Part shown: in pieces, positions 9,313 to 43,832 of the stretch | Position numbering within the stretch: position 1 is the stretch's first letter | How the letters are laid out: every line of letters begins with the position of its first letter | From: Campylobacteraceae bacterium | Lineage (GTDB): Bacteria; Campylobacterota; Campylobacteria; Campylobacterales; Sulfurovaceae | DNA length: 64,000 bases | Assembly: GCA_027065045.1 (NCBI GenBank) | Contig: JAMOOX010000143.1 | Coordinates: 1 to 64,000 of the forward strand | Direction of reading: 5' to 3' | Translations under genes and position numbers: made by a program | Notes under the pieces: model-generated | The model's input: only the letters and a program-made list of their open reading frames with translations | The model's database searches: none | Told to the model about the DNA's origin: nothing

Positions 9313-10378
9313 TATTACTCCTTGCATAACTTCCTAGTAGTTTTATATCATTGTGTCGTGCCAAAATCTTTTGTACATTCTCATCTTCTATATGTCCATC
9401 AAAATCTATATAAAACCAATATGAAAATGCCTCATCTGTATTTGATGGTCTGCTCTCAATTTTGGTGAGATTAATACCCTCATTATCAAACTCTTGTAAA
9501 AATCTTACAAGTGAACCTTGTGCATTAGAAAGTTTTGCCAAAATTGATGTTTTATCATTACCACTTTTAGAATTTTCTACTTTACTTATCACTATAAATC
9601 TAGTCTTATTATCGTGTCTATCTTCAATATTATCATATAGTATAGGTAGATGATTAATCTTAGCAGCAATATGAAGACAAATAGAAGCAGATGTATCATC
9701 TTGCATAGCCAATTGAGCTGCTTTTGCCGTAGATTCTACTGGGATTTGTTCTACATCTTCTAATCCATGTTCGCTCAAAAACTCTCTACACTGCCCAAAT
9801 GCTTTATCTTTGGAATATATTTTAGTAATTGTATCAGTAGAAGTAGCAAGAGAGGCAAAAGAGTGGTGTATTGGCATATAAATTTCAGATACAATATTAA
9901 GATTATACTCACCCAATAAATCCAAAGTCTCACCAACCACACCATCACTAGAGTTCTCAATAGGTACTACTCCATAAGTAGCTCTATCACTATCAACTGC
10001 TTTAAATACAGAAGATATAGAACCCAATGGAATATAATCTTTGATAGAACCAAATCTACTCTGTGTTGCTTGATGCGTAAATGTACCAATAGGCCCAAGA
10101 TAAGCTACTTTCTCACTTCTTTCAAGATTTTTTGATACTCCAATAATCTCATAAAATATAGCCTCAATAGACTTTTTACACAAGACACCTTTACTATCCA
10201 AACTTCTCTGAGTGAGACGATTAATAATAGCCTGTTCTCTCTCTGGTCTATATATCGCCCCACCAGTACTATTTTTAAGCTCCCCTACCTTATGTACATA
10301 CTCCATTCTCTCATTGAGTAGAGTCAAAATCTCATTATCTACTCTATCAATATTACCTCTTAACTCTTCTAACTCCAT
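9302..10378 (-). CDS. pheA: Chorismate mutase / prephenate dehydratase
   Basis: Bifunctional enzyme leading from chorismate to phenylpyruvate. Residues 1-90 form an AroQ-type chorismate mutase (ELRGNIDRVDNEILTLLNERM). The dehydratase domain follows (KVAYLGPIGTFTHQA, YGVVPIENSSDGVVGETLDLL), and the ACT domain contains the phenylalanine-binding ESRPS in NLTKIESRPSNTDEAF, so feedback inhibition by phenylalanine is expected. The 358-residue length is usual for P-proteins. The ATG follows AAGGAAAATAT on the minus strand. First gene of the pheA-hisC pair. Confidence 0.95.
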   Translation of the reverse strand: MELEELRGNIDRVDNEILTLLNERMEYVHKVGELKNSTGGAIYRPEREQAIINRLTQRSLDSKGVLCKKSIEAIFYEIIGVSKNLERSEKVAYLGPIGTFTHQATQSRFGSIKDYIPLGSISSVFKAVDSDRATYGVVPIENSSDGVVGETLDLLGEYNLNIVSEIYMPIHHSFASLATSTDTITKIYSKDKAFGQCREFLSEHGLEDVEQIPVESTAKAAQLAMQDDTSASICLHIAAKINHLPILYDNIEDRHDNKTRFIVISKVENSKSGNDKTSILAKLSNAQGSLVRFLQEFDNEGINLTKIESRPSNTDEAFSYWFYIDFDGHIEDENVQKILARHNDIKLLGSYARSNSEI

Positions 10379-10405
10379 ATATTTTCCTTAAAAAAATCAT
10401 AAATT

Positions 10406-10430
10406 TGTAGGGTGGGTGATAACCCACCAT
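10406..10430. repeat. TGTAGGGTGGGT palindrome, copy 2
   Basis: TGTAGGGTGGGTGATAACCCACCAT: 7-bp stem GGTGGGT / ACCCACC with loop GATA, upstream of pheA. It matches the copy at 57587-57610 (opposite orientation) except in the loop, and shares the stem with 5092-5108. Confidence 0.7.
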
Positions 10431-10500
10431 TTAATGCCATTTAAAATAACATCTATAACTAATTATATTTATTATATCAAACTAATCATTAAAATAGTAG

Positions 10501-10620
10501 TATATTGACAATCACACCATAATTATAGAAAAAGAGCTTTATTTCCAAGCCCACGAAATACTAGAAGAGGTATGGCATATAGCCAAAAGAACTAAGCACC
10601 CACAAAAGGCTCTTCTAAAA
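10501..10620 (+). pseudogene. DUF309-like gene fragment
   Basis: An open stretch without a start codon reads EKELYFQAHEILEEVWHIAK, which matches the HExLExxW signature of DUF309 proteins. Only about 40 residues of the family are present, and the frame then runs into the 3' end of the gene on the opposite strand. I read it as the remains of a gene lost when the accessory island was inserted or rearranged. Confidence 0.5.
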
Positions 10621-11314
10621 GTAGATAGTTTATATATAATCTTGTATTTCTTGCTATATATCTTTTTGTTGCTAATCTAACTATAAAACTTCTAAAAAAT
10701 AATAAAATAAAGAATAGTACAAATAATATTATAGAACCTATCCAACACTCTATCATAGATACAAATATCCAATTACCAAATAGAGAAAATAGCATAGCAC
10801 CATACATAAATGATATAATTTCTACATCACTATGATAACTATATTTGGGTTGTATATCTTTGAATCTACCTTTATTTCCCAAAATTAAATATAAAATATA
10901 ATCATTATTATAATGTACATCAAATAAATTTTTAAATATATCTTTTTGAGTATTTAACTTTTCTATCACTTTTTTTCTTAATAATTCAAAAGGTTCATCT
11001 ACAATCTCATCAAGATAATCCTCTTTAATCTCATCATTAATCATAGATTGTGTAAAAATCTTGATTAAATAGCCATAAGAAAATACCGTAGCTACAAGTA
11101 AAGATTGGAGTATTATCATAGCTAAATCATCTATCCCCTTACTCTTTGTAGTACCAATAAAATCAATAAATAGATTTACAAAACTACTCTCCATCTCTTT
11201 AGAAATAATATAGTTTATTATAATATTTAAAATTACCAAAAAAAACAGAGCTATAATAGTTGGTTTTAATAAATCTTTGAAATCTTTGTAAGTGGTATTG
11301 ATAAAATTAAACAT
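10592..11314 (-). CDS. Integral membrane protein beside RADAR genes
   Basis: 240 residues with hydrophobic helices near 18-38, 66-88, 165-185 and 188-208, and a charged cytoplasmic-looking stretch between them that includes DEIVDEPFELLRKKVIEKL. The ATG is preceded by AGGAGAAAAAA on the minus strand. It shares the extreme AT content of the rdr genes. It is transcribed away from rdrA, with the nuclease-like gene 15 bases upstream on the same strand. Known RADAR loci sometimes carry small membrane partners (RdrC/RdrD, SLATT), but I see no convincing match to those. Function unknown. Confidence 0.65.
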   Translation of the reverse strand: MFNFINTTYKDFKDLLKPTIIALFFLVILNIIINYIISKEMESSFVNLFIDFIGTTKSKGIDDLAMIILQSLLVATVFSYGYLIKIFTQSMINDEIKEDYLDEIVDEPFELLRKKVIEKLNTQKDIFKNLFDVHYNNDYILYLILGNKGRFKDIQPKYSYHSDVEIISFMYGAMLFSLFGNWIFVSMIECWIGSIILFVLFFILLFFRSFIVRLATKRYIARNTRLYINYLLLEEPFVGA

Positions 11315-11329
11315 TTTTTCTCCTATAAA

Positions 11330-11842
11330 TTAATAACTTTTAATATTTTTGTGTTTCTCTACCATTATATCACCTTTTTTTTGTAATACAAAAAACCCTT
11401 CATTATTTGCTTTTTTTACCAACTCATCTTTAATCGTAAAACCAGCAACAGCTCCATATATCTTAAAATCTTTATAGTTTGGGAAAAGCTCTCTAAACTT
11501 TGCAATTTGTTTGTTTTTGAGATTATCTATATCTTTATTTCGTATCTTATTTTTGGTCTCAACAATCAAAACACTATCACCATTAAATAAAATTATATCA
11601 TACTCACCTTTTAAATTATGATTGACATATTGATATAAATTTCTCTCTATATTATCAAATTTTAATCCTGCTATAGATTTATCTCTATTTAAAATATTAA
11701 AAAAATAATCCTCTGTAATCTCACCTTGTGTCCTAGCAATATCATCTATATTTATAGATAAATTATCTATAAACTTTTTTGTCTCTTTTTGTAACTCTTT
11801 AACCTCTAATATAGCTTGTGCCAAATCCTCTTTTGTTACCAT
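11330..11842 (-). CDS. PD-(D/E)XK-fold nuclease-like protein
   Basis: 170 residues. An N-terminal coiled-coil-like part (EVKELQKETKKFIDNL) is followed by a core with GEYDIILFNGDSVLIVETKNK, whose Asp and E-x-K spacing fits the PD-(D/E)XK phosphodiesterase superfamily (DUF3782-like proteins). The conserved ITEDYFFN segment before the core is also typical. The ATG at 11842 follows AAAAGAG. It is divergent from rdrA with 159 bases between, and forms a likely pair with the membrane-protein gene downstream. The substrate is unknown; a true endonuclease activity is inferred only from the fold. Confidence 0.6.
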   Translation of the reverse strand: MVTKEDLAQAILEVKELQKETKKFIDNLSINIDDIARTQGEITEDYFFNILNRDKSIAGLKFDNIERNLYQYVNHNLKGEYDIILFNGDSVLIVETKNKIRNKDIDNLKNKQIAKFRELFPNYKDFKIYGAVAGFTIKDELVKKANNEGFFVLQKKGDIMVEKHKNIKSY

Positions 11843-12001
11843 CACACTCTTTTATTTCTTTTTATTATAACATAAATCTATAAAATTATGTTAATTATAT
11901 TCACACTATAATTTAATATTAATGAAAAATTATAAAAATAGATTATTTTTTAGATAATGTGTGGTAGAGTGGAATAATTTAACTACTCTAAAGGATATAA
12001 T

Positions 12002-14905
12002 ATGCCAAAAACAATAACTATAAATTTAAATAATTCAAAAGCTACTATTTTTAAAAGAGATGATTTTGTATATGAAGATGAACTAGATAAAGTTTTAAAA
12101 CTTATATCTGATAGAATAGAAGATATAAAATCTTCTAAAAATAAACACTATTCATATAAAAAAGAATATAATCTTTCAAGAATGCATGATGCAATTTTAA
12201 TTGATGGGAAAAGAGGTACTGGTAAAAGTACTTTTCTATTAAATTTGGAGGCAGATATCAATAGAAAAGAAAAGGATAATAAAATATCAGCTAAGGTATT
12301 AGATACTATTGATCCAAATCAACTAGATGAAAAATCAAATATACTGTTAATTATAATAGCTCATATTTATACCGAATTATTAGAGTATATGCAGGGTTCT
12401 ATAAATTCTAAAAATGATCAACGAGAAAAATTTAAAAAACTTACAAATCAGATACATAGTTTAACTTCTGCTATTAGTACATCGCAAGAGAGAGCCTATG
12501 AAGATGATTATGATAAATTATATAATCTTCATAAAAGTTTAATTATAGATGAAGATTTACATCACTTTTTTTCAGAAATTTGTGATTTTTTTGAAGTAGA
12601 TGTCCTAATATTACCAATAGATGATATAGATATGGATTTTATTCATGGATATAAAGTAATTGATTCTATTAGAAAATATTTATCTACTCCTAGAATTATA
12701 CCGATAATATCTCTTGATACAACACAAATTTATGCATTAGTAAAACAAAAAAATTATGAATATTTTGGATATAAAGCCTATACACCAAAAAGAAAAATTA
12801 CACCTGATAGTGAACTTACATTTCTAAGAAAACTACCAGAAGATTATCTACAAAAAATTTTAATGCCAACAAGAAAAATAGTATTACCAGACATATATGA
12901 ATTATATAAAATGCATTTAAAGAAAATCCATATACAATTTTCATTTAATACAAATATATCAGAGAATAAAACTTTAAAGTTTAATATAAATATGACTAAT
13001 ATAATAAAATATTATATGAATATCATTTATGATTATACAGGCGATATTAATAACATAGATAATTATCGTATAATTAATTACCTCAAAGATAAATCATTTA
13101 GAAGTTTTTATGAAGATTTAACTGCTTTTCTAAGGGGTGTCAGAATGGATAATAATAATATCTATTTTTATGATACTAGAGATATTAAAGATAGATTAGT
13201 TCCTTTTTATATTGACCATTTTGATAATCGTTATGATGCTACAGATTGGTTTTGGGATAAATATTTAAATGAATTAAAAATAAAAATAGTAGACTATATT
13301 AATGAACATAAAGATAAAGACCATAGATATATTAATAGTTTCTATATAGATATTTCAAGAGAAATACTTTTATTAAATAGTTTTGGAGAAGCAAGTTTTA
13401 TTAGAGATGAACAAACATATATTAGATTATATTTACAAGATTTTTTTATTAAAAATATAGAAATTAAAAATATAGAAATTAAAAATAATAAAGAGGTTAA
13501 TAGTCTCAATCAAATTGAAAAAGAGATAGATATAACAGGACTAATTGAATTAGTTACAAGAACATTAATACCTATGTATCTATTTGAAGAGTTGATTAAT
13601 GAAGAAATTATAGATATATTTAAATATAATATTAAAGAATTAAGTTTTTTTGCTAGAGATAATAATGATAGTCTAAAAGATACAATGTTTGATTTATCTA
13701 TTAGTATATTAAAATATTATAATGATAATACATTTTCAAAAGTTGAAGAGAATACAAATAAAAAAATAATTGGTATATTTTTAAAACAAGAGAACTATGA
13801 ACTATCTTTAAAATATCCATTATTTATAGAAAGATATAGTGATTTAAAATTAGATAAAGATATTTATTTTTTATCTCCTCTTAAATACTATTCCATGATA
13901 CCATACTATTTTAACTGTATTAAAGGAGAAAATAAAAATAATTGCTTAGATAATCTAAAAAGAGATTATCAAGATATATTTGATGAGATACATTTAAATC
14001 CCATCTTTAATAAAAATGATATATTTATTAAGATGTTAAATAGTAATATAGGTATATTAAAATTAGCTGATTTTGCTAAAAATTTAGTAAAGAATGTCTT
14101 AAAAGTATCAATTCAAGATTATGATATAGAATTTACAAATAAATTAAATATATCTTCTAATAATATTAAATTTGAACTTTTTATTCATAAAAATATTAAT
14201 ACATATAAATCTATATATTTTCACCATTTTTTAATATTTTTAATTCAAAGTTTAAAAAATCAAGAACTTAATAAAAAATTAAAAATAAATAATATTACTA
14301 CAGGAACAAAAGCAAAAGACTTTGAAAAATATAAGATCAAAGAGAACTTTTTTATAGAAAATATAAAAACTGTTTTAAAATACTTAAAAGAAGAAATTAA
14401 TAATTATGAGAATGGAAATGAAAATCTAGATAGTTATAAATCTATAGAAAATTTTTTATATAAATTATATTTATCATTAGTTAAACATTATACATATCAA
14501 AGTAGTTTTTATATTATAGAAGATAAAGAGTTTAATATCCAAAATTATATTATAAGATACTATATGGAAAAAGATAGTATAACTCAAGAAAAAGCTATAA
14601 AAGAGATTGAACAAAATTCTAAAGATAAAAAAAATAAATTTTATGAATTAGCTCAATTATATTCTAATATAGGACTTCTTTATAAAGAAGGAAATATATT
14701 AAATTCTTCTTTAAAATATTTACCTCATAATAATATAAAACTAATAAATTTTAAAAACTGTATAAAATTAAAAGAGCTGAAATGGAGTACTCATCTAATA
14801 AATTATAATAAACTAATAAAAGATTTTAAAAATAAAAAAATAGATATTAAATTAATATATAAAATAGCAAAAAAAATAAAAGATAAAAAATATGGCATTA
14901 ATTAA
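12002..14905 (+). CDS. rdrA: RADAR ATPase RdrA
   Basis: Large P-loop ATPase of the RADAR anti-phage system, which oligomerises and works with RdrB. The 967 residues show Walker A GKRGTGKST at 69-77 after DAILID, and a Walker B-like segment VLILPIDDID at 201-210, with the long helical C-terminal part usual for RdrA. Call support is strongest from the context: the next gene, overlapping by 14 bases, is a giant adenosine-deaminase-fold protein. AAAGGATATAAT precedes the ATG. The gene is extremely AT-rich compared with pheA and recA, and Lys, Asn and Ile dominate, suggesting a transferred origin. Confidence 0.85.
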   Translation: MPKTITINLNNSKATIFKRDDFVYEDELDKVLKLISDRIEDIKSSKNKHYSYKKEYNLSRMHDAILIDGKRGTGKSTFLLNLEADINRKEKDNKISAKVLDTIDPNQLDEKSNILLIIIAHIYTELLEYMQGSINSKNDQREKFKKLTNQIHSLTSAISTSQERAYEDDYDKLYNLHKSLIIDEDLHHFFSEICDFFEVDVLILPIDDIDMDFIHGYKVIDSIRKYLSTPRIIPIISLDTTQIYALVKQKNYEYFGYKAYTPKRKITPDSELTFLRKLPEDYLQKILMPTRKIVLPDIYELYKMHLKKIHIQFSFNTNISENKTLKFNINMTNIIKYYMNIIYDYTGDINNIDNYRIINYLKDKSFRSFYEDLTAFLRGVRMDNNNIYFYDTRDIKDRLVPFYIDHFDNRYDATDWFWDKYLNELKIKIVDYINEHKDKDHRYINSFYIDISREILLLNSFGEASFIRDEQTYIRLYLQDFFIKNIEIKNIEIKNNKEVNSLNQIEKEIDITGLIELVTRTLIPMYLFEELINEEIIDIFKYNIKELSFFARDNNDSLKDTMFDLSISILKYYNDNTFSKVEENTNKKIIGIFLKQENYELSLKYPLFIERYSDLKLDKDIYFLSPLKYYSMIPYYFNCIKGENKNNCLDNLKRDYQDIFDEIHLNPIFNKNDIFIKMLNSNIGILKLADFAKNLVKNVLKVSIQDYDIEFTNKLNISSNNIKFELFIHKNINTYKSIYFHHFLIFLIQSLKNQELNKKLKINNITTGTKAKDFEKYKIKENFFIENIKTVLKYLKEEINNYENGNENLDSYKSIENFLYKLYLSLVKHYTYQSSFYIIEDKEFNIQNYIIRYYMEKDSITQEKAIKEIEQNSKDKKNKFYELAQLYSNIGLLYKEGNILNSSLKYLPHNNIKLINFKNCIKLKELKWSTHLINYNKLIKDFKNKKIDIKLIYKIAKKIKDKKYGIN

Positions 14906-17708
14906 AACCAAGGAATACCTATCTATCATAGAATTTTTAAATAGTTATGAAACTATTAAATATAAAATCAAAGATTATTTAAATCATCAAGATGATAATA
15001 GAGATAATTTTTTGGATATTATAAAACTTAATAATCAAAATAGTTATGATTTATATTCTGATGATAGTTTTATATTTCTTAAAAATGAACTTAAATTTAA
15101 TTTTATTAAAATTTATAAATATTTAAGTGAAATACATTATATAAATAATAATGGTAAAATTTTTTTAAATAATAATAAACTTGAAGATTATCAGTTATTA
15201 AGTTCTTCAATAGATATAGAACCTCTAATATCTACACATATATTAGATTACACTTCTCATTTAGATGATTATAATAGATATAGATTTATTGATAAGAATA
15301 TAGAAATAGATTTTAAGTTTGATGGGGATATAGAGAAAAGAATAAAAGAATATTCTGATTTACATATCCATTTAGGTGCTTCTATTTCATTTAATATAAG
15401 ACTTCATTATATGCTCAAAAATATTCATCACATTAATTTAAATCAAGATCATCAAGACCTTTTTTATAATCTTAGTACATCAAAATTAAATATTAAAGAT
15501 ATAGTTTTTAGTATCTCTATAATAGAAAATATATTGATTGAATTATATGAATTAGAGCATAAATTTAATAAAATAGATTTTAAAGAAATAGAATTTTATT
15601 ATCAAAACAAAGATGAAAAAAGATTAAGAATAGTATATAAAGATAATCAAGATTATATTAAATATATAAAGCATTATATAGAAATTAAACTAGATTTATA
15701 TAATTTGCTTAAATTATTAGAAAATAAAGATAATATATATATTTACATATATTATAAAAAATATACAATTAATAGTATCAGAAATATTAATCATTTAAAA
15801 GAGTTTTATACCTTTAAGAATAATTTTGATGATATATTACTTAAAAATAGTTTTGAAAATTTTTTAAAAGAGGATATTAAAAAGGCTGATAGATATTTAA
15901 TAATGTTTTTTATAACAAAAATAAATAATAAAAATAAATATAGTGTTATAATAAATATTTATTTTATTCTTAGAAGTATTGTTAAAAATTTTTTGATCCA
16001 ACAACATAAAAGAGAGGGATTAGGATACTTTTCACTATATTCAAGAAATAATATTAGAAGAGATAAAAAAGAGTATGAACGGGATATTATTATCTCTTCT
16101 TTGGTTAATAAAAATGTAGGTAATAATATAGAGGGAAGAATCACACTTTCAGATAAACCTCATGAGATAATAGATAATATCTCATTATATATAAATAAGT
16201 TTCAAAAATATAAAAAGAATAAAGATAAATTAAAATTTATATTCCATTTCCAAAAAGAACAAAATAGTTCAAAATTTGAAAAAGATATAAATAAAAGAGA
16301 ACCTAAATGGTATAAACTTAGAAATAGAATAAAATATCAAGCATTCGCATTAAATAAAGTACTCACAGACCCATCATATAGAAGGTATGGAGTATATTCT
16401 AAATCAATAGATGATATTAAAAATATCAATAAAATTAGCAGTAAAAAATTTAGAGAAATGATTAATAATCCTATTAGGTATAAAGATTATGTCAAAAAAT
16501 ATATAGCTGGTATTGATGTAGCAGGTAGAGAGTCACTAACTCCTCCAGAGGTATTTGCACCTATATATAGATATTTTAAATACAATATAGAGACTTCAGG
16601 AATGCTATTAAAAAGAGACTATCCTTATATAGAATATGATAGTCTAAAAGAGATAGATTTTAAATATACTTACCATGTAGGAGAAGATTCCAGAGATATT
16701 TTAAGTGGATTACGAGCTATATTTGAAACTATATTATTTTTAGATTTAAAAAAGAATGATAGATTAGGACATGCTTTAATTTTAGGAATTAAGCCTAATA
16801 TATTTTTAAATAACAGAAATAGAGAGATAAAACTTAATAATTTAGAAGTGTTAGATAATGCTATTTTTACTTATTATATGATTAATAGATTTTCTAAATA
16901 CTTTATAAATTTTATAGAAATAAAAAGTAATTTAATAGAATTAATTCATGGATTATCAAAGTATATTTATCAAAATATTATATTTAATTTTGATATAGAT
17001 GATTTAATTGATGCTTGGTTCCTTCGCCGAAATTGTCCAAATGAAATTTTACAAACTATGTCATTATTTGATAGTTCTAAAATATTAAATATAAAAAATA
17101 AGAATATTATTTTTTCACTAAAAGAGTATTTATATGATAGAGATATAGTATATTCTATCCCAAACTATAATTATGTAAAATATGCTATGCCTGATTTTAT
17201 AAAATATGATACAAATAATCAATCATCTTTGCATGAAAGATATAGATATATCAAAAATAATCCAATTGCATATAAACTCTTTTGGCTATATCAACAAGAT
17301 ATTGATGTAATTAAACGCTCTAATGAAATTTATAATAAAAATTTCATATTTAAGGATTCTTTTTATGAAACTATGCAAGATGTAATAATGGAACATATAA
17401 TAGCAAAAGAAGAAATTATTATAGAATCTAATCTAACCTCAAATATCCTAACAGGAGGACTCAAAAGCTACTCACAACATCCAATATTTAGATTTAAATC
17501 AATTGGAGATATTACACCAAATAAATTTAATATAAGAACTAAGAAATTAAAAGTAGTACTAGGTACAGATAACCCTGGTATTCAAAATACATCATTTATC
17601 AAAGAGTTATATCATCTTAAAAATGCTTGTAATAAAAATGGTTTTAGTGATGATGAGGCTTATGAATATATTAATGATATTATAGAAGAGGGGAATAGGG
17701 CTTTTTGA
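14892..17708 (+). CDS. rdrB: RADAR adenosine deaminase RdrB
   Basis: Effector of RADAR, a large shell-forming deaminase of the adenosine deaminase fold, reported to convert adenosine (in RNA or nucleotides) to inosine on phage infection. All metal and catalytic groups are visible in 938 residues: the HxH motif SDLHIHLGAS (His 158 and 160), HVGED with His 595, the RLGHA histidine near 627, and GTDNP with Asp near 893. Ordinary adenosine deaminases are about 330-350 residues, so the length itself marks RdrB. The ATG lies inside the end of rdrA (14-base overlap), indicating translational coupling. Confidence 0.9.
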   Translation: MALIKTKEYLSIIEFLNSYETIKYKIKDYLNHQDDNRDNFLDIIKLNNQNSYDLYSDDSFIFLKNELKFNFIKIYKYLSEIHYINNNGKIFLNNNKLEDYQLLSSSIDIEPLISTHILDYTSHLDDYNRYRFIDKNIEIDFKFDGDIEKRIKEYSDLHIHLGASISFNIRLHYMLKNIHHINLNQDHQDLFYNLSTSKLNIKDIVFSISIIENILIELYELEHKFNKIDFKEIEFYYQNKDEKRLRIVYKDNQDYIKYIKHYIEIKLDLYNLLKLLENKDNIYIYIYYKKYTINSIRNINHLKEFYTFKNNFDDILLKNSFENFLKEDIKKADRYLIMFFITKINNKNKYSVIINIYFILRSIVKNFLIQQHKREGLGYFSLYSRNNIRRDKKEYERDIIISSLVNKNVGNNIEGRITLSDKPHEIIDNISLYINKFQKYKKNKDKLKFIFHFQKEQNSSKFEKDINKREPKWYKLRNRIKYQAFALNKVLTDPSYRRYGVYSKSIDDIKNINKISSKKFREMINNPIRYKDYVKKYIAGIDVAGRESLTPPEVFAPIYRYFKYNIETSGMLLKRDYPYIEYDSLKEIDFKYTYHVGEDSRDILSGLRAIFETILFLDLKKNDRLGHALILGIKPNIFLNNRNREIKLNNLEVLDNAIFTYYMINRFSKYFINFIEIKSNLIELIHGLSKYIYQNIIFNFDIDDLIDAWFLRRNCPNEILQTMSLFDSSKILNIKNKNIIFSLKEYLYDRDIVYSIPNYNYVKYAMPDFIKYDTNNQSSLHERYRYIKNNPIAYKLFWLYQQDIDVIKRSNEIYNKNFIFKDSFYETMQDVIMEHIIAKEEIIIESNLTSNILTGGLKSYSQHPIFRFKSIGDITPNKFNIRTKKLKVVLGTDNPGIQNTSFIKELYHLKNACNKNGFSDDEAYEYINDIIEEGNRAF

Positions 17709-18068: not shown

Positions 18069-18094
18069 ATAACTCCACCTAGAGATGGAGTTAT
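18069..18094 (-). terminator. Rho-independent terminator after recA
   Basis: A 9-bp perfect stem, ATAACTCCA / TGGAGTTAT, with an 8-base loop, 3 bases beyond the recA stop. On the minus strand it is followed by AATTTAAGATTTTTT. It closes the long minus-strand run ending in recA. Confidence 0.75.
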
Positions 18095-24438: not shown

Positions 24439-24469
24439 CATCTTGATAAAGCAACAAAGAGAGAATAGT

Positions 24470-24862
24470 ATGAGTAGCTATCAATATAAATTAAGAAAAC
24501 TTCAAAAAGAAATTAAAGAGATAGGTATAAGAAAAAAGAAGAAAAGATTTAAACCAAATCAAAAAATAATGATTGATTTTATAAATGGTGTAACTAAATT
24601 TGCTCAATTTAAGATTAGAGAAAGCAAAATATTACTTTACAAAGGTGATGATAAAAAAGGTTTTAAACATATTCTACAAAGACACTACAATACAAATAAA
24701 GGTAATTTATCAACTATGGATATTTTAAATATCTCAGATATTATAGAGAGAGGTATTAGACTTTCTAACAGAGGTGTTTCAAATCTATGTATAGTATCTA
24801 ATGGAGATAAGGCAATAATAGTATTCAACCATCTAGGGCTTACTAAACGCTCTATATTGTAG
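24470..24862 (+). CDS. BECR-fold nuclease-like protein
   Basis: 130 residues from the ATG giving MSSYQYKLRKLQ (AGAGAGAATAGT precedes it; nine more codons are open upstream). The N-terminal third is strongly basic (GIRKKKKRFKPNQK). The core has KGFKHILQRHYNTNKGNLST and then IIERG, the GFKHIxxRH pattern of barnase/EndoU/colicin-E5/RelE-type (BECR, PBECR) domains, and ends VIVFNHLG. These domains occur in phage-head proteins and toxins. No antitoxin or phage gene is beside it. It stands alone between two near-identical promoter sequences. Whether it is an active RNase is inference. Confidence 0.6.
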   Translation: MSSYQYKLRKLQKEIKEIGIRKKKKRFKPNQKIMIDFINGVTKFAQFKIRESKILLYKGDDKKGFKHILQRHYNTNKGNLSTMDILNISDIIERGIRLSNRGVSNLCIVSNGDKAIIVFNHLGLTKRSIL

Positions 24863-27054: not shown

Positions 27055-30000
27055 ATGATAAGAGTTGTAAAAAGAGATGGTAGAGTAGAAGTATTAGATA
27101 TTTCTAAAATACAGAAATATACATCAGATTCAGTGGCAGGGCTTGAGAATGTAAGTCAAAGTGAATTAGAAGTAGATGCGAAATTACAATTTCGTGACCT
27201 TATTACAACACAAGAGATACAGCAGACTTTAATAAGCACAGCAATAGATAAGATTGATATAGATAGACCTGATTGGACTTTTGTAGCATCAAGACTATTT
27301 CTATATGATTTATACCATAGAGTAAATGGATATAATGGATATCCTCATCTAAAAGAGCATTTTATTAGAGGTGAAAAAGAGGGTAGAATTGTAGTTGGGC
27401 TAAAAGATAAGTATGATTTAGATGATTTAAGTAGCTATATCAAACCAGAGAGAGATTTACAATTTAACTATTTAGGGATTAGAACACTATATGATAGATA
27501 TTTATTAAAAGATGGAGATAACTCTCCAATAGAACTGCCACAACAACTATTTATGGGTGTGGCAATGTTTCTAGCTCAAAATGAGTTTGATTGTCAATTA
27601 TGGGCAAAAAAGTTTTATGATATTTTATCTAAATTTGAAGTAATGGCAGCGACTCCTACACTAAGTAATGCTAGGACTCCAAGGCATCAATTATCTAGTT
27701 GTTTTGTAAAGGGTACAAAAGTAAGAACAATTGATGGATACAAATCAATTGATAAGATTATAGAGGGTGATTTGGTACTTACTCATAATAATAGATTTAT
27801 GAAAGTATATGAATTATTTAAAAGAGATTATGCAAGAAATTTAATTACTTTAAATATTAATGGTTTAATAGATGATTTATCTGCGACAGAAGAACATCCT
27901 ATATTATCTATTAAAAAAGATGATATTAAGTGTATTAGAAAATTAGGTAGTTGTCTAAAAAGCCAAAGAGATAGTAAAAGATGTTTTGCTCTAAAAGGTG
28001 AATATAAAAATGATTGTGAATTTTTAGATAAAAAGTTTAGTTCTAGTTGGAATAAGATAGAAGAGTTGAATGTGGGTGATTTTGTATCTATTTCATATCC
28101 TAAACATATTCATAAAAAAGAGATTTATATATCAGATTATATACAAACAAAAAATATTATCACTAAAGATAATAAGATAATGTTTAAGCGTTCATCTAAC
28201 TCTTTTTATAGTTGTGAGAGAAGTTTTTTAAATAATCAAATTAAACCTGTTAATAATAAAATAGAGTTATCAAAAGATTTTATGCTTTTAATAGGTTACT
28301 TTTTAGCAGAGGGTCATATTGCCAAAGATATGACATCTATTACTTTTACATTTGCTTCTAAAGAGACTCTATATATTCAAGAGACCAAAAAGATTTTAGA
28401 AGATATATTTGATGTAAATGTAAATATTAATCCTAATAGAGATAATAGTGTAAATGTATATGTACATAGTAAGATTGTTGGACTATTCTTTGATAAACTA
28501 ATAGGTACAGGCTTTGATAAAAAACTACTCAATAATGATTTACTTTTTGCAAATCCAGAAGTACAAAAATATCTTTTAATAGGTGCAATTCGTGGAGATG
28601 GGTGTGCATTAAAAGAGGGTTACCAATTAACAATGTCTAATAAAAGACTTATTAAACAACTATTTGAAATATCATTAAGATGTGGATTATCACCTTATAT
28701 GAAGAGAGACTTTAGAAAACATAAATTAGCTACAATTAAAGCAAGTCATCTAAAAATAGGTGTAAATAGTGATAAATATTTTATATTAAGTGTAAATAAG
28801 AATATAGAGAAAATAAACTTTAATCCAAAAGCTTCATCAACTCTAAGATATTTTTGGTTGAATAATGAATATTTTATGAAAATTATAGAGAGAGAAGATA
28901 AATATTTAGAAGATAAAGTTTATAATATAGAAGTAGAAGAAGACCACTCATATAGTGTATCAGGAGTAAATGTTCATAACTGTTATATTGGCTCAACAGC
29001 AGATAATATAGAGGGTATTTTTGATGCTTATAAAGAGATGGCACTATTATCTAAATTTGGTGGTGGAATTGGTTGGGATTGGTCATTAGTTCGTGGAATG
29101 GGTTCATTTATTGATGGACATAAACACGCTGCTGGTGGGATTGTACCATTTCTAAAGATTGCTAATGATGTGGCTATTGCAGTTGATCAATTAGGTTGTG
29201 TGGCTAAGAACTCGTTTGTTAGAGTATTACAGAGTGTAGAGACAGATAAATTTAATCATAACTTTAGAAGAGAGTATCAAGAACACTCTTTAAATAGAGA
29301 TGAGATTATAGGGATTATTACTACTCATATTAAAAACTTTACATTTAAATATGGTAAACTAGATAAAAGTGATGTTTATGATTTATTAAAAGATTATATT
29401 ACAGGTTTATCTCTAGTAGATATTTGTACAAAATTCAATCTTTCAAGAGACCAATACAAGAGACTTATTGGCAAGTATAAAAAGATAAATAAGGGAATAC
29501 CTTATGGATTTATTATGCTTAATAAATATCCAAATTATGCGATACATCAAAGTGGAGTTATAATTAATTTAATCTCTCTAAAATTATTAAATACCACTAT
29601 TGATAGAAAAGGTTATGTTAGAGTTAGTATAGGTAAAAAATCATTGCCTTTACATAAATTATTGGTAGATACTTTTTTAGATACACCTAATGATATTAAG
29701 TTCACAATAGACCATATAGATAATGATAAACTCAATAACTCTTTGGATAATTTCAAACTTATATCAAATGAGGATAATATATCAAAAGGTTGGGAGAGTT
29801 CTAAAGAAAAACGAATAGAGATGTCAAGAGTAAGAAAACATCTATCTCATAACTTTAAATTAAAAGGTGATAGACGAAATACACAAGATATAAATATAAT
29901 CAAAATATCTACAAAAGTTATCCCTATTTCTGAAGCTAGAATAGGTGATTTGGTAGAGAGTTTTAATATAGAATTAAACAAAGTTCAATATAAAAAAATT

Positions 30001-31821
30001 GAAGCTGTTCATGATTTAGAGGTTAAAAAAGAGAACCAAATTAAAATTTCATTTAAAGATGGATATATTATTACTTCAAAATGGCACCCTATGGCTATTA
30101 AGGGAGATAATGGATATTTATATAAACGAAGTGATGAGATAAAAGTAGGAGAGTTTGGAGTAAATTATAAAGGTGAAGCTGATGAGATTATAGCAATAGA
30201 TTATAATCCTAATATATCTCCAAAGTATATGGATTTAACAGTTCAAGGTACAAATAACTATTTTGCCTCTACTGATAAATCTAAAAACTTTTATTTAACT
30301 CATAATACTCGTAAAGGTGCAATAGCCGTTTATATAGAACCATGGCATATAGATATAAAAGATTTTATAGACCTCAAAAAAAATTCAGGAGAAGAGAGAA
30401 GAAGAGCCCATGACCTATTCCCTGCTTTATGGTTAAATGATATATTTATGCAAAGAATAGAAGAGGATGCTACTTGGACACTATTTGACCCTTATGAAGT
30501 ACCACAACTTACAAAACTATATGGTGAAGATTTTAATAGAGAGTATATTAAGTTAGAACAAGATGAGAGCATTACTAAAAATATTATTAGAGCAAAAGAT
30601 TTATGGAAAACTATTTTAAGAAGTTATTTTGAGAGTGGTAATCCATTTTTGACATTTAAAGATAGTGCAAATAGAACTAATCCAAATTCTCATACAGGGG
30701 TAATTAGAAGTAGTAATTTATGTACAGAAATAATGCAGAACACAGAGCCAAATCACTATAAAATTCAACTCACTTTTGATGATATGACAACTATGGTATT
30801 AGAAGAAGATGAAGAGATTAAAGTTGATAGTGGTATAGTTAAACTTGCCAAAAAGGTAACGGCACTTGATAGTATTGGTGGTAAAAGTATATGGATGGTA
30901 GATAAGGCTCAAAGTGATGGAGAGACTGCTGTTTGTAATTTGGCCTCTATTAATCTTTCTAAAATCAATAGAAAAGAGGATATTGATAGGGTTGTGCCAA
31001 CTGCTATTAGAATGCTAGATAATGTAATTGATTTAAACTTCTATCCATTAGCAAAAGTCAAAAAAACCAATCAAAAAAGCCGTGCTATTGGATTGGGTGT
31101 GATGGGTGAGGCTCAAATGTTGGCTGAAAATCAAATAGAATGGGGTAGTGATAAACATTTTAATAAGATAGATGAGATAATGGAGGCTATATCATATAAT
31201 GCTATTGATTCATCATCAAATTTGGCTATTGAAAAAGGTACATATCCTACTTATGATGGTTCTAGTTGGAGTCAGGGGATTTTTCCAATTGATAAGGCAA
31301 ATTCACAAGCTTGTAATTTAGTAGATAGAGGTGGGCTTTTTGGATATAGTTATGATTGGGAAAAATTAAGAAGCAAAGTCAAACAAGATGGAATGAGAAA
31401 TGGATATTTGATGGCAATAGCACCTACAAGTTCAATTTCAATTTTGACAGGTACTACACAAGCGATAGAACCAATATATAAACGAAAATGGTATGAAGAG
31501 AATTTAAGTGGATTAATCCCTGTTGTTGCTCCAAATTTATCTCCTAATAATTGGCACTACTACAAACCTTGCTATGAGTTAGACCAAAGAATATTAATTA
31601 AAGCTGGTGCAATTAGACAAAAATGGATAGACCAAGGGCAATCTTTGAATATCTTTGTATCTCTTGATAAAGCAAGTGGAAAGTATCTAAATGATATATA
31701 TATGAGTGCATGGAAATATGGATTGAAATCTACATATTATCTAAGAAGTCAATCTCCTGAAGCGATACAAGAGGATGAGGGTGTAGAGGATAGAAGTATG
31801 GAGTGTGTTGGTTGTCAATAG
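27055..31821 (+). CDS. nrdA: Ribonucleotide reductase large subunit with two inteins
   Basis: Class I ribonucleoside-diphosphate reductase alpha chain. The 1588-residue precursor is two inteins of 427 and 370 residues in a 791-residue enzyme. The extein has an ATP-cone (VVKRDGRVEVLDISKIQ), the redox Cys in QLSSCYIGSTAD, the radical-site SNLCTEIMQNTEP with Cys and Glu, CNLASINL, the IAPTSSISILTGTTQ loop, and a C-terminal CVGC thioredoxin-facing tail. Intein 1 splits SS/CYIGS at the conserved Cys. Intein 2 splits QLG/TRKGAIAVYIEPWH. Activity requires both splicing events. The ATG comes after AAAAAAAGGGATATATAAG. No nrdB lies in the window. Confidence 0.96.
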   Translation: MIRVVKRDGRVEVLDISKIQKYTSDSVAGLENVSQSELEVDAKLQFRDLITTQEIQQTLISTAIDKIDIDRPDWTFVASRLFLYDLYHRVNGYNGYPHLKEHFIRGEKEGRIVVGLKDKYDLDDLSSYIKPERDLQFNYLGIRTLYDRYLLKDGDNSPIELPQQLFMGVAMFLAQNEFDCQLWAKKFYDILSKFEVMAATPTLSNARTPRHQLSSCFVKGTKVRTIDGYKSIDKIIEGDLVLTHNNRFMKVYELFKRDYARNLITLNINGLIDDLSATEEHPILSIKKDDIKCIRKLGSCLKSQRDSKRCFALKGEYKNDCEFLDKKFSSSWNKIEELNVGDFVSISYPKHIHKKEIYISDYIQTKNIITKDNKIMFKRSSNSFYSCERSFLNNQIKPVNNKIELSKDFMLLIGYFLAEGHIAKDMTSITFTFASKETLYIQETKKILEDIFDVNVNINPNRDNSVNVYVHSKIVGLFFDKLIGTGFDKKLLNNDLLFANPEVQKYLLIGAIRGDGCALKEGYQLTMSNKRLIKQLFEISLRCGLSPYMKRDFRKHKLATIKASHLKIGVNSDKYFILSVNKNIEKINFNPKASSTLRYFWLNNEYFMKIIEREDKYLEDKVYNIEVEEDHSYSVSGVNVHNCYIGSTADNIEGIFDAYKEMALLSKFGGGIGWDWSLVRGMGSFIDGHKHAAGGIVPFLKIANDVAIAVDQLGCVAKNSFVRVLQSVETDKFNHNFRREYQEHSLNRDEIIGIITTHIKNFTFKYGKLDKSDVYDLLKDYITGLSLVDICTKFNLSRDQYKRLIGKYKKINKGIPYGFIMLNKYPNYAIHQSGVIINLISLKLLNTTIDRKGYVRVSIGKKSLPLHKLLVDTFLDTPNDIKFTIDHIDNDKLNNSLDNFKLISNEDNISKGWESSKEKRIEMSRVRKHLSHNFKLKGDRRNTQDINIIKISTKVIPISEARIGDLVESFNIELNKVQYKKIEAVHDLEVKKENQIKISFKDGYIITSKWHPMAIKGDNGYLYKRSDEIKVGEFGVNYKGEADEIIAIDYNPNISPKYMDLTVQGTNNYFASTDKSKNFYLTHNTRKGAIAVYIEPWHIDIKDFIDLKKNSGEERRRAHDLFPALWLNDIFMQRIEEDATWTLFDPYEVPQLTKLYGEDFNREYIKLEQDESITKNIIRAKDLWKTILRSYFESGNPFLTFKDSANRTNPNSHTGVIRSSNLCTEIMQNTEPNHYKIQLTFDDMTTMVLEEDEEIKVDSGIVKLAKKVTALDSIGGKSIWMVDKAQSDGETAVCNLASINLSKINRKEDIDRVVPTAIRMLDNVIDLNFYPLAKVKKTNQKSRAIGLGVMGEAQMLAENQIEWGSDKHFNKIDEIMEAISYNAIDSSSNLAIEKGTYPTYDGSSWSQGIFPIDKANSQACNLVDRGGLFGYSYDWEKLRSKVKQDGMRNGYLMAIAPTSSISILTGTTQAIEPIYKRKWYEENLSGLIPVVAPNLSPNNWHYYKPCYELDQRILIKAGAIRQKWIDQGQSLNIFVSLDKASGKYLNDIYMSAWKYGLKSTYYLRSQSPEAIQEDEGVEDRSMECVGCQ
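27700..28980 (+). other. Intein 1 (LAGLIDADG) in nrdA
   Basis: 427 residues, precursor positions 216-642. Starts with the nucleophile Cys in CFVKGTKVRTIDGYKSI (block A) and has block B as TEEHPILSI. A LAGLIDADG homing-endonuclease pair follows, LIGYFLAEGHI and LIGAIRGDGCAL. Block F is KVYNIEVEEDHSYSV and block G ends VNVHN, followed by extein Cys. All splicing residues are present, so it should be active. The endonuclease is in the usual place between blocks B and F. Confidence 0.93.
29197..30306 (+). other. Intein 2 (HNH) in nrdA
   Basis: 370 residues, precursor positions 715-1084. Starts CVAKNSFVRV, ends FYLTHN, and the +1 extein residue is Thr. About 190 residues after the first beta strand are a NUMOD/HNH-type domain (YAIHQSGVI, LPLHKLLVDTFLD, TIDHIDNDKLNNSLDN). 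Only after it does the splicing fold continue with STKVIPISEARIGDLVESFN, then block B (TSKWHPMAI), block F (YMDLTVQGTNNYFAS) and block G. The stretch between blocks B and F is too short for an endonuclease, so the nuclease sits inside block A. Confidence 0.9.
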
Positions 31822-39515: not shown

Positions 39516-39547
39516 AAGGGTTGCACCTGCTCCCCAAATGGTAATTG
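39516..39547 (-). other. Residual oldest CRISPR spacer beside the IS
   Basis: Thirty-two bases lie between TACAC at 39511-39515 and the first complete repeat. Thirty-two is the standard spacer length of this array, and TACAC equals the last five bases of the repeat as read on the plus strand. This is therefore a genuine spacer whose outer repeat was cut by the IS. Confidence 0.7.
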
Positions 39548-41140
39548 CTTCCAAGCTACCTACACGGTAGTACACATTAATACTTTGTATCTCGGAAATC
39601 GTTCTGGACTTCCAAGCTACCTACACGGTAGTACACATCGCTTTACTTGTTCTATTGTTTATTCAACTCTTCCAAGCTACCTACACGGTAGTACACTGCG
39701 AAATCAAAACAACTTAGTATCCCTTTAGCTTCCAAGCTACCTACACGGTAGTACACCTATAAAACTAACAGATTTAAAAGAGCTAATTCTTCCAAGCTAC
39801 CTACACGGTAGTACACTCTCTTTTGGTTTGGGTGTTGGTACTGCTTTTCTTCCAAGCTACCTACACGGTAGTACACAGAGAAAAAGAGTTAATTTTTATG
39901 TTGTGGGATCTTCCAAGCTACCTACACGGTAGTACACCTAAATCGTAGATTTTGGTTTACTTTTGAGTAGCTTCCAAGCTACCTACACGGTAGTACACTA
40001 TGCTTATCGTAAGATTGGATATTTCGCAAACTTCCAAGCTACCTACACGGTAGTACACAATTTGAATGAATGATAAATATGATGTGATTTCTTCCAAGCT
40101 ACCTACACGGTAGTACACAATAAAACTTTTAAAGGGGGTAGAACTTATAACCTTCCAAGCTACCTACACGGTAGTACACATACACCTATTGCTAAGTCTA
40201 AGCTTATCTTTCTTCCAAGCTACCTACACGGTAGTACACCCATATTGGATAAAAAAAGACTTCAAAAAAAACTTCCAAGCTACCTACACGGTAGTACACG
40301 TTTGGGAGTTTCTAAAGTTAAAACTTTGGAACTTCCAAGCTACCTACACGGTAGTACACTTTTCTTTTGTAATCCAATTTTCTACCACATACTTCCAAGC
40401 TACCTACACGGTAGTACACGCAACACATTCTTCATCAGTTTCAAATGTTAACTTCCAAGCTACCTACACGGTAGTACACGAGATGAGGGACATATTAAAA
40501 AAGATAAGTTACTTCCAAGCTACCTACACGGTAGTACACCCCTGCTCTGTGCCGATAGCCTTAGTATTGATCTTCCAAGCTACCTACACGGTAGTACACT
40601 TCGCAAAGATGGAGATAATATCAATCTAAGACTTCCAAGCTACCTACACGGTAGTACACGGATAAGAAGTCTGCTAAACTCTCTGTTCTATCTTCCAAGC
40701 TACCTACACGGTAGTACACGAATATCATGAAGTTTTCTCAACATCTCAGCAACTTCCAAGCTACCTACACGGTAGTACACCATATAGTCTTATTACATAA
40801 GCACTGCGAAGACTTCCAAGCTACCTACACGGTAGTACACTTTTTGATGTTATAACAGTATGGAGGCACGGACTTCCAAGCTACCTACACGGTAGTACAC
40901 TTGCATTCTCTTTTTTCAAATCTTTTAGTTTTCTTCCAAGCTACCTACACGGTAGTACACGAGGGATTGTGTTAGCTAAAAATAAACAAAATCTTCCAAG
41001 CTACCTACACGGTAGTACACTGTTTATCTCATTTTTTTCCCTAAACTCTTTCCTTCCAAGCTACCTACACGGTAGTACACACATCTTTTAGACATCTTTT
41101 AGACATCTTTTACTTCCAAGCTACCTACACGGTAGTACAC
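39548..41140 (-). CRISPR. Type I-F CRISPR array, 27 repeats
   Basis: Twenty-seven copies of a 28-bp repeat that I could not see vary, with 26 spacers (21 of 32 and 5 of 33 bases) plus one residual spacer. On the minus strand the repeat starts GTGTACTACCGTGTAGGTAG and ends CTTGGAAG; CTACC-GTGTA-GGTAG forms the Cas6f hairpin, like the canonical I-F hairpin. The minus strand is the likely transcribed strand because the cas genes and the AT-rich leader lie on the right. New spacers then enter at the 41140 end. The left end is cut by an IS. Confidence 0.97.
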
Positions 41141-41287: not shown

Positions 41288-41854
41288 TTAGAACCAAGGG
41301 ATAGTTGAAATTTTGCTTAATCCAAATAAATCAAACCCATCTTTTATCTCACTCTCTTGTAACTCTCCAAATGCTATAAAACGACGATGAAGTTGTCTAT
41401 TAGACATACTTACAAGCTCCACATAAGGGTTATCTAAACCACCTTGATACATTTTTATTCGGTATTTTTTAATATCCTCTTCATTGAAATTACCTTTGCC
41501 CTCTTTGGCTCTTTTAATAAGCCGTCTTAGTTTTGCTTCGGTCATATTTTGTTGGACTCTATAGACTGTTCTATATTTTACCTTATTAGGAATAGCATTA
41601 ATATCGGAGAGTTTATAATATGTTATATCTTTTTTTAACCACTCTTTTGATTGTAGTTTTTCAAGATTCTCTTTTGAGCCATGAATACGAAATAATCTAC
41701 CAAGTTTTAGACGATACTCTGGAAAACTTACAGCAATATTATTTGATTTTAGCTCATACAATTGTTTATGAAAAGCACTATAGAGTTGATTTAGTAAAAT
41801 ATTTTCTCTTATCTCTTTTTTGGGCTGTAGTCTTATATCTATATAGTGAGTCAT
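41288..41854 (-). CDS. cas6f: CRISPR endoribonuclease Cas6f (Csy4)
   Basis: Cuts pre-crRNA at the repeat hairpin and stays bound to the 3' end of the crRNA. The 188 residues begin MTHYIDIRLQPKKE and end GLSKISTIPWF, the ends expected of Csy4. The basic segment AKLRRLIKRAKEGKG is the Arg-rich helix that enters the RNA groove, and a His near residue 30 (SAFHKQL) is at the catalytic position. Its ATG overlaps the cas5fv stop by four bases. Last gene of the cas operon. Confidence 0.95.
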   Translation of the reverse strand: MTHYIDIRLQPKKEIRENILLNQLYSAFHKQLYELKSNNIAVSFPEYRLKLGRLFRIHGSKENLEKLQSKEWLKKDITYYKLSDINAIPNKVKYRTVYRVQQNMTEAKLRRLIKRAKEGKGNFNEEDIKKYRIKMYQGGLDNPYVELVSMSNRQLHRRFIAFGELQESEIKDGFDLFGLSKISTIPWF

Positions 41855-42870
41855 CTCTTTACCTCTCTTGTATCAATATTGGTTACATAGGCTAAACCTT
41901 TTTTACCAAGGTAGAAGCTAGATACTCCTGCATTATTTATAAGCTCTCTTAGATGTTTGGCTTCATCTCTTGAAATATCTATAGTTATCTCTAAAATTCC
42001 ACTTGCTTTAGTGAGCATAGAAGTAACTTGACCCTCTCCCCTTACAAAAGTTTTGGCAATATAAGGGTTTCCAAAAATCTTCTTTTTTTCACCTGTAGTA
42101 AAACGGTTCATAAAATCTTTTTTGGTAAATAGTCGTTTTGAGATACCTGTAATTGTTCCTATTTTAGTCAAAGCTGAACTCAAATCATATTTTTCTGATA
42201 GTCTTTTGAGCTGTAGATATAACGATGAACAGTATAAATTTAGAGGGACAACTAATCCTTTGTTATTTTTATAGTTTGTTCCTTCAAAATTTTTCTCTAA
42301 AATTTCTAAAACTTTTAAAACTTTTTCACTCTCTTCTAAAGCCTTAAATTTACCAATTCCTGCAAATCTATCAGATATAATCAAAGGATCAAGTTCAATA
42401 GAATTATCTATCTTACTACCATAAATAATAAACTCTAAAAGCTCATCAATTTCAAGTGCCAAAATACCCCAAAACTCTAGTGAATAATCAGAAGTAAACA
42501 TAGAATCATTAGTATTTATCACTCCTGTAAATGAGTTTTGGTCTGTATTTCCTGATATATTTCTCAAATAGACAAGCTCACTATTTTTAACTTTAATATC
42601 ATCATCAAAAGTAACCAACGGCTCTATATCTTTGAAAAAGTAGTTTTCATCTTCTCGTGCTTGATATAGTTTTCTCTGTTCTCCAATAAGACGGTTCAAA
42701 ATCCCCATTACTGTACTATGTGTAACATCTCTAGTAATATAGTTTTCACTCTTTTTCAAAGCTGTAATAGAACCTATAAATTTTCTTCCTTTTTTTGGTA
42801 AGGCTTCATCGTTGCTACCATCAAGAAAAGAGTTTCGCCATGAAGCTTCATACTCTATCTCTATTTTCAT
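41851..42870 (-). CDS. cas5fv: Type I-F2 Cascade subunit Cas5fv
   Basis: 339 residues, starting [20 protein letters not shown], the beginning I associate with Cas5fv of the I-F2 (I-Fv) variant. It binds the crRNA 5' handle and, in the Shewanella putrefaciens system, its helical domain replaces the missing Cas8f large subunit in PAM recognition. The sequence includes a long middle segment (THSTVMGILNRLIGEQRKLY). The ATG overlaps the cas7fv stop by one base. The absence of cas8f and of csy3-type Cas7 is what separates I-F2 from I-F1. Confidence 0.88.
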   Translation of the reverse strand: MKIEIEYEASWRNSFLDGSNDEALPKKGRKFIGSITALKKSENYITRDVTHSTVMGILNRLIGEQRKLYQAREDENYFFKDIEPLVTFDDDIKVKNSELVYLRNISGNTDQNSFTGVINTNDSMFTSDYSLEFWGILALEIDELLEFIIYGSKIDNSIELDPLIISDRFAGIGKFKALEESEKVLKVLEILEKNFEGTNYKNNKGLVVPLNLYCSSLYLQLKRLSEKYDLSSALTKIGTITGISKRLFTKKDFMNRFTTGEKKKIFGNPYIAKTFVRGEGQVTSMLTKASGILEITIDISRDEAKHLRELINNAGVSSFYLGKKGLAYVTNIDTREVKR

Positions 42871-43829
42871 TATTTCTCTTTTGCATAAAAATAATGAGCA
42901 TAGTTAGAACTTGATTTACTATTTACACTACCTTCATCATGTTTGACTCTCATCATTTGTGTACTGTTGTTATAGTCTATAGTCATCTCATCTACATACA
43001 TATATGATTTTGCTTGACGAATAGAGAGTTCACTTATCATACGAAGTGTCTCATCTATCAAAACAGCTACTGCATCATCATTGAGCAAAATACCATTTTC
43101 ACCCTCTTCAAAAATAGTACCATTTCTTACACAGTTCTCATGAAAAGATACTTTAGGTGTACGATTTTCAGTATCTATAGAGATTATATAATCTTCTACC
43201 AATTTAGCTACCTCTTCACCCTCTCCACTCTTTATTTGCATAGCTTCACGGTCAAATTTTTTATCGAGAGATATAAACTGTAACTGCTCTATATTTATAG
43301 ACCCATAAGAAATATATTCTGTATTTCCAAATGTAGTTTTAGAGTAAAAAGAGGAGCTGTCTCTCTCTCCTGCTTGTCCAAACTGTTCAAAGTTTCCATT
43401 ACCAAGTTGATCAACAAAGTCCTCTAATAGTAGTGGGCTTGTTCTCTTATTTTGAGTAGCAGGGACAACAAAACCACGAACCAAACCAGTAATAGAAGCC
43501 AATACATTTTTAATATTTTTTCTATCTGCATAGTGCAAATCAAAAGCTTGTGCCTTAAAAAGATGATGTCGCACACAGTTTTGACTAATATAGAGAGGAT
43601 TTTTCTTGAAATCAATATCTGTTGGCTCTTTTCTATATTTGTAACCTGTATCTTTAACTCTTCCAGATAGGTTACTATATCCTCTTAGCTTTGGCATAGT
43701 ATGGTTATCTACTGTTTTACCATCTTCACCTTGTAGATTGGTTGGACCATTCCAATTGACCACACCATGACCTTTTGCAACTATCTTAAAATCTACACTT
43801 CGTATTCCTGTTATCTTTTCACTTTTCAT
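42870..43829 (-). CDS. cas7fv: Type I-F2 Cascade backbone Cas7fv
   Basis: RAMP-fold backbone protein that polymerises along the crRNA. The 319 residues contain [33 protein letters not shown] and [19 protein letters not shown], and the central [12 protein letters not shown], all in the pattern of Cas7fv. It has no relation to canonical Csy3 beyond the fold. Separated by three bases from cas2-3. The gene order cas1, cas2-3, cas7fv, cas5fv, cas6f equals that of the S. putrefaciens prototype. Confidence 0.88.
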
Positions 43830-43832
43830 CTC

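Follow-up and report, generated by a model that had tools for sequence, protein, structure and literature searches.

A 64,000-nucleotide stretch of contig JAMOOX010000143.1 (the window), part of a 2.06-Mb draft genome from a Sulfurovum relative, carries two intact open reading frames (ORFs) in tandem on the same strand, each with an ATG start: rdrA and rdrB, the gene pair of the RADAR antiphage system. An earlier note on this DNA had described RADAR as two overlapping ORFs of 967 and 938 residues and had placed it, correctly, in a Campylobacterota-like genome; the ORFs were recovered at exactly those coordinates with a 14-nucleotide overlap, which suggests coupled translation, and the tandem order is also seen in relatives. 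A gene overlooked in the earlier note encodes a membrane protein, here called T, upstream of the pair (Table 1).

Table 1. Features of the rdrA-rdrB locus, with positions in the window
Feature	Position	Strand	Evidence
T, 240-residue membrane protein, conserved RADAR neighbour, C-terminal motif RYIARNTRLYINYLL	10592..11314	-	homologues, hydropathy, helices, codon pattern
rdrA, P-loop/AAA+ ATPase, 967 residues	12002..14905	+	profiles, E. coli structure, residue alignment
rdrB, adenosine deaminase-fold protein, 938 residues	14892..17708	+	profiles, PDB sequence and fold matches, residue alignment
rdrA/rdrB overlap, 14 nucleotides	14892..14905	+	ORF coordinates
PD-(D/E)XK-like gene, 171 residues, 15 nucleotides upstream of T	11330..11845	-	weak PDDEXK matches
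Intergenic region, ribosome-binding-like AAAGGA before rdrA	11846..12001	+	sequence
Terminator-like hairpin after rdrB, before convergent recA	18069..18094	+	consensus match only
Terminator-like hairpin after the T gene	10534..10552	-	consensus match only

The residues expected of a RADAR pair are in place. RdrA has a Walker A motif, GKRGTGKST, at residues 69-77 (G69-S76, with K75), an ILPIDDID segment with Walker B D207/D208, sensor-1 D239, and sensor-2 R367; RdrB has H158/H160, H595-VG-E598, G626-H627, and a TDN motif with D893, comprising the zinc-site residues H158, H160, H595, and H627, the catalytic E598, and the conserved D893. Every catalytic position named for E. coli RADAR (RdrB H152/H154/H498/E501/H530; RdrA K82, D221/D222, D253, and R377; PMC9994260) has an identical counterpart in the window pair. 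In alignments of diverse relatives, K75, D207, D208, and R367 are identical in 18/18 RdrA proteins and D239 in 16/18, and all six RdrB residues are identical in 18/18 RdrB proteins (twelve from Campylobacterales, the window's included, and six plasmid-borne). The motifs quoted in the earlier note (GKRGTGKST, ILPIDDID, HIH, HVGE, GHA, and TDN) are all present, and its claim that no active-site group is missing holds, with nearly all catalytic residues invariant among the 18 relatives.

Profile libraries and E. coli structures agree on the RADAR identity. The best PADLOC matches are to RdrA (E 1.1e-31 and 4e-30) and RdrB (E 3.2e-35 and 1.5e-33), the top NCBIfam matches are again to RdrA (E 2.2e-48) and RdrB (E 2.2e-65 over residues 82-938), and the best sequence relatives in the PDB are E. 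coli RdrA (E 6.6e-20) and E. coli RdrB (E 1.2e-15, strengthening to E 9e-47 with a five-member profile). Alignment with known RdrA proteins is limited to the N-terminal ATPase part. The adenosine deaminase fold that the earlier note assigned to the 938-residue protein was recovered by a fold search, in which the only significant PDB matches of a weak model were E. coli RdrB chains (E 3e-15). The deaminase also matches the PADLOC model CARF_ADA weakly (E 3.9e-6); its N-terminal part has no CARF domain match in PADLOC or Pfam. By these sequence comparisons the window pair is a divergent RADAR.

Chance cannot account for the two ORFs: when the 5.9-kb region (about 20% G+C) was simulated 200 times with a first-order Markov model, the longest open frame had a mean length of 75 codons and a maximum of 133. 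Compared with a same-genus relative, both genes have the fewest nucleotide changes at codon position 2 and the most at position 3, as would be expected for proteins under selection. The G+C content of rdrA and rdrB is 0.19-0.20 (0.16-0.23 over most of their length) versus 0.32-0.35 in nearby pheA, recA, and carA, which is consistent with horizontal acquisition and typical of acquired defence genes.

RADAR is patchy in this order, with RdrB matches at E<=0.001 in 15/399 Campylobacterales genomes. In the RdrB tree (loci carry our running numbers), the window protein groups with that of same-genus locus L028 (Sulfurovum; 50% identity) and with L029 (32%), and this clade stands apart from a larger Campylobacterales clade, L020-L027, both with full support; L031, L033, and L034 form a separate group alongside the plasmid RADARs L058 and L059. 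The window RdrB is about 24-32% identical to the proteins of other clades (about 24-28% for L020-L027), so the strong divergence that the earlier note ascribed to the deaminase is borne out. An RdrA at a contig edge in a Nitratifractor metagenome-assembled genome (MAG), L074, belongs to the window clade (36% identity over 509 residues). Seven plasmid RADARs were found, six of them used as outgroups and one with a SLATT gene. Pattern searches for RdrB in genome contigs and viral contigs returned nothing, nor was anything found in phages. An empty insertion site was not demonstrable, the recA neighbourhood being different in the three same-genus genomes in which recA was found.

The survey also brought up several other RADAR arrangements. 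A third RADAR pair (L073, 4440-9058, minus strand), overlooked by the RdrB family search, is present in a MAG (G021) that also holds L022 and L029; it belongs to the L031/L058-type branch and lies among surface-polysaccharide-type genes; with 8% contamination, this MAG may be a mixture. Divergent rdrAB pairs of three genomes lie near a DndC-like gene of the phosphoadenosine-sulfate reductase family, at 3850-5334 in L033 (DndC match E 5e-80), 5631-7103 in L034, and 12659-13987 in L031. L031 encodes in addition a 388-residue protein with C-terminal transmembrane helices (9369-10535, plus strand) that starts 8 nucleotides past rdrB, a different membrane protein at another RADAR branch with no NCBIfam or PADLOC match. 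In L025 (6053-12651, minus strand), RADAR sits between a complete tgt gene (queuine tRNA-ribosyltransferase) and a C-terminal tgt fragment, recognised by eye, a layout as if RADAR had been inserted with partial duplication of tgt.

T belongs to a family of 220-270-residue proteins, with about four long hydrophobic helices indicated by hydropathy and helix prediction (and a low-confidence model, predicted local distance difference test score [pLDDT] 65) and, toward the C terminus, a block of invariant residues (Y219, R222, R225-L-Y, N229-Y-L-L). Five other loci have a homologue of T next to rdrAB (E 6e-61 to 9e-10): T is divergent and directly upstream in L028, downstream and overlapping the end of rdrB in L029, upstream on the same strand in L021 and L022 (overlapping or within 26 nucleotides), and upstream on the same strand with one intervening gene in L027; L020 (genome G273) has a decayed copy immediately upstream of rdrA. 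The linkage thus spans two deep RADAR clades, in four or more distinct gene arrangements, and has been retained while gene order was reshuffled, as would be expected if T were a functional partner. Six full-length T genes were found in the 399 genomes, every one of them linked to RADAR. With the remnant counted, T occurs in 6/15 RdrB-positive genomes versus 0/384 without RdrB (Fisher p 9e-10, a value that takes no account of relatedness); these counts exclude a few further profile matches that were short and weak (E 6e-5 to 1e-3). When about 85,000 named genomes were scanned with one exact T motif, five matches came up, all in the same RADAR loci. Contig DYTG01000007.1 carries a T locus matching that of a same-genus Sulfurovum sp. 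MAG. Nucleotide differences between T and its L028 homologue number 60 at codon position 2, 103 at position 1, and 134 at position 3; judged by this pattern, T is under coding constraint. Searches for T in viral contigs and in plasmids found nothing, the T members match no model in Pfam, PADLOC, or NCBIfam, and a PDB fold search with the T model returned nothing significant.

We put at roughly 85% the probability that this locus encodes an antiphage system of the RADAR type, from a deep and little-known clade, in which a membrane protein is the third component. If the system works as it does in E. coli, RdrA would form a heptameric AAA+ ATPase that senses a phage cue and docks on a dodecameric RdrB shell in a giant co-assembly; the zinc deaminase sites of the shell would turn ATP/dATP into ITP/dITP, the nucleotide pool would be poisoned and infection aborted, with both phage and cell stopped. 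T would most likely act at the inner membrane, tethering or gating the assembly as a sensor, regulator, or pore; being a membrane protein linked to RADAR, it could bring the assembly, the trigger, or the output there. In this it would resemble Csx27 and SLATT, the small membrane proteins that accompany other RADAR variants.

Several observations weigh against a three-component RADAR. No similarity to E. coli RdrA is detectable in the C-terminal half of the window RdrA, which leaves docking of RdrA on RdrB a prediction here, and the single-chain model of RdrB is of low confidence (mean pLDDT 51). The profile search proposed in the earlier note had a divided outcome: RdrA and RdrB are the best matches in both libraries, but the NCBIfam scores fall under the curated cutoffs (165 versus 600 bits for RdrA and 222 versus 800 bits for RdrB), which, read to the letter, triggers one of the refuting conditions set in that note. 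Neither cutoff is passed in any of the 399 Campylobacterales genomes, with all the RADAR loci found among them, and we therefore regard these cutoffs as a naming rule for close relatives and not as a test of membership. RADAR loci without T (L023, L024, L025, L031, L033, and L034) show that RADAR as a whole can do without T. Finally, in the window T lies on the opposite strand and the PD-(D/E)XK-like gene separates it from rdrA, an arrangement in which co-expression of T with rdrAB is not a given.

The identity of T admits two readings. T could be a divergent Csx27 and the locus an instance of the Csx27-associated RADAR subtype (rdrABC) already reported (PMC7699616), a reading compatible with the three-component RADAR and standing at a little under even odds. 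Published Csx27 proteins, of about 200 residues (PMC8209922) and with four predicted transmembrane regions (PMC7642515), resemble T in size and in the number of membrane-spanning regions; against this, searches of PADLOC and NCBIfam with six T members, allowing E values as high as 10, hit no Csx27 model, in libraries whose Csx27 content is unconfirmed, and the genome scan with the single exact T motif gave no Cas13b-type loci. Alternatively, we tentatively posit that T is a third, undescribed membrane component of RADAR, neither Csx27 nor SLATT, that couples phage sensing or killing to the inner membrane, in which case RADAR in these bacteria would be a membrane-tethered or pore-forming three-part system. 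No T member has a Pfam match to SLATT, and T does not match a RADAR-linked SLATT protein from Aureibacter (hhalign probability 0.7%).

T could instead be an incidental neighbour, carried along with RADAR by shared mobile islands but taking no part in the system. Defence islands do bring unrelated genes together, some RADAR loci do without T, and in the window T is divergent with another gene between it and rdrA. We consider this explanation unlikely, however, because T accompanies rdrAB across both deep clades in varied arrangements, is found nowhere else in the 399 genomes, and is under coding constraint, whereas a neighbour that does appear incidental, the PD-(D/E)XK-like gene, behaves differently, being dispersed and multicopy.

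A pair that is RADAR-like but has another substrate or output, such as A-to-I editing of RNA, which was the original RADAR proposal, or deamination of adenosine or AMP, could be entertained in view of the large divergence of RdrB; this appears improbable, since in its metal site and catalytic residues the window protein agrees with the mononucleotide deaminase architecture of E. coli RdrB, which has been shown to deaminate ATP/dATP without RNA editing (PMC9994260). Decay of the system to a non-functional remnant, to which the very low G+C and the precedent of the decayed T in L020 might point, is very improbable given that both ORFs are full length, retain every catalytic residue, and differ from the same-genus relative mainly at third codon positions. 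Like the earlier note, we infer that this RADAR is functional, and on its sequence it is probably a working system.

Around these genes, the intergenic region upstream of rdrA may hold divergent promoters; a promoter scan around the locus did no better on this very AT-rich DNA than on shuffled sequence, and no Rfam family was found there. The PD-(D/E)XK-like gene could share a transcript with T. Its family is dispersed: this genome holds several copies, and members occur in many Campylobacterales, sometimes at contig ends. The gene is missing from the same-genus RADAR locus; for these reasons it is left out of the system, as probably not a RADAR component.

Elsewhere in the window, a CRISPR array (39546-41140; about 60-nucleotide period, roughly 26 repeats) stands beside a type I-F2 (I-Fv) operon on the minus strand (41288-47677) with strong matches to Cas6f, Cas5fv, Cas7fv, Cas3fv, and Cas1fv, and a 468-residue membrane/TPR protein is encoded upstream of cas1 on the same strand. 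The alpha subunit of ribonucleotide reductase (27055-31821, plus strand; 1588 residues) has its NrdA matches split around two long, intein-like insertions, with an intein C-terminal splicing motif at residues 621-643 and a further insertion containing an HNH-like stretch. A 139-residue protein (24443-24862, plus strand) weakly matches the PBECR1 family of barnase/EndoU-like nucleases (E 0.0016, below cutoff).

The rdrAB pair itself is a known type of system, and the added interest lies in its conserved, unmodelled membrane partner and its deep clade. To our knowledge, none of the RdrA-RdrB structures published so far includes a membrane component; T, following rdrAB across two deep clades while gene order is shuffled, offers a testable case for RADAR acting partly at the membrane. 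Because the NCBI naming thresholds miss every RADAR found in Campylobacterales, the reported rarity of the system may be partly a threshold effect.

RADAR is known from Escherichia coli (PDB 8fnt/8fnv/8fnw, 8hr7), Citrobacter rodentium, and Streptococcus suis. The window locus shares with these systems the tandem of a P-loop ATPase and a large zinc adenosine deaminase-fold protein, the same catalytic residues, and a similarity limited to two regions, the ATPase domain and the deaminase core at the C terminus; the characterised RADARs share likewise limited similarity among themselves, with 22-28% identity (PMC9994260). It differs in belonging to a separate deep clade with L028, L029, and L074, in its extra membrane gene, and, relative to E. 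coli, in the length of RdrB (938 versus 799 residues) and in its insertions. The L020-L027 RADARs are likewise from Campylobacterales and some (L021, L022, and L027) have a homologous T, but their RdrB identity to the window protein is low and they are separated from it in the tree. Cad1, a CARF-fused adenosine deaminase that converts ATP to ITP and is activated by cyclic oligoadenylate through its CARF domain (PMC12669630), has in common with the window RdrB the deaminase core, reflected in the weak CARF_ADA match, and differs from it in the CARF domain, for which the window protein gave no match. The closest parallels to the whole arrangement are the published RADAR subtypes with Csx27 or SLATT (PMC7699616), in which a small membrane protein is likewise encoded beside rdrAB: T resembles Csx27, with which it was compared by description only, in having about four transmembrane regions, lacks detectable similarity to the RADAR-linked SLATT protein, and differs from both variants in being divergently transcribed in the window.
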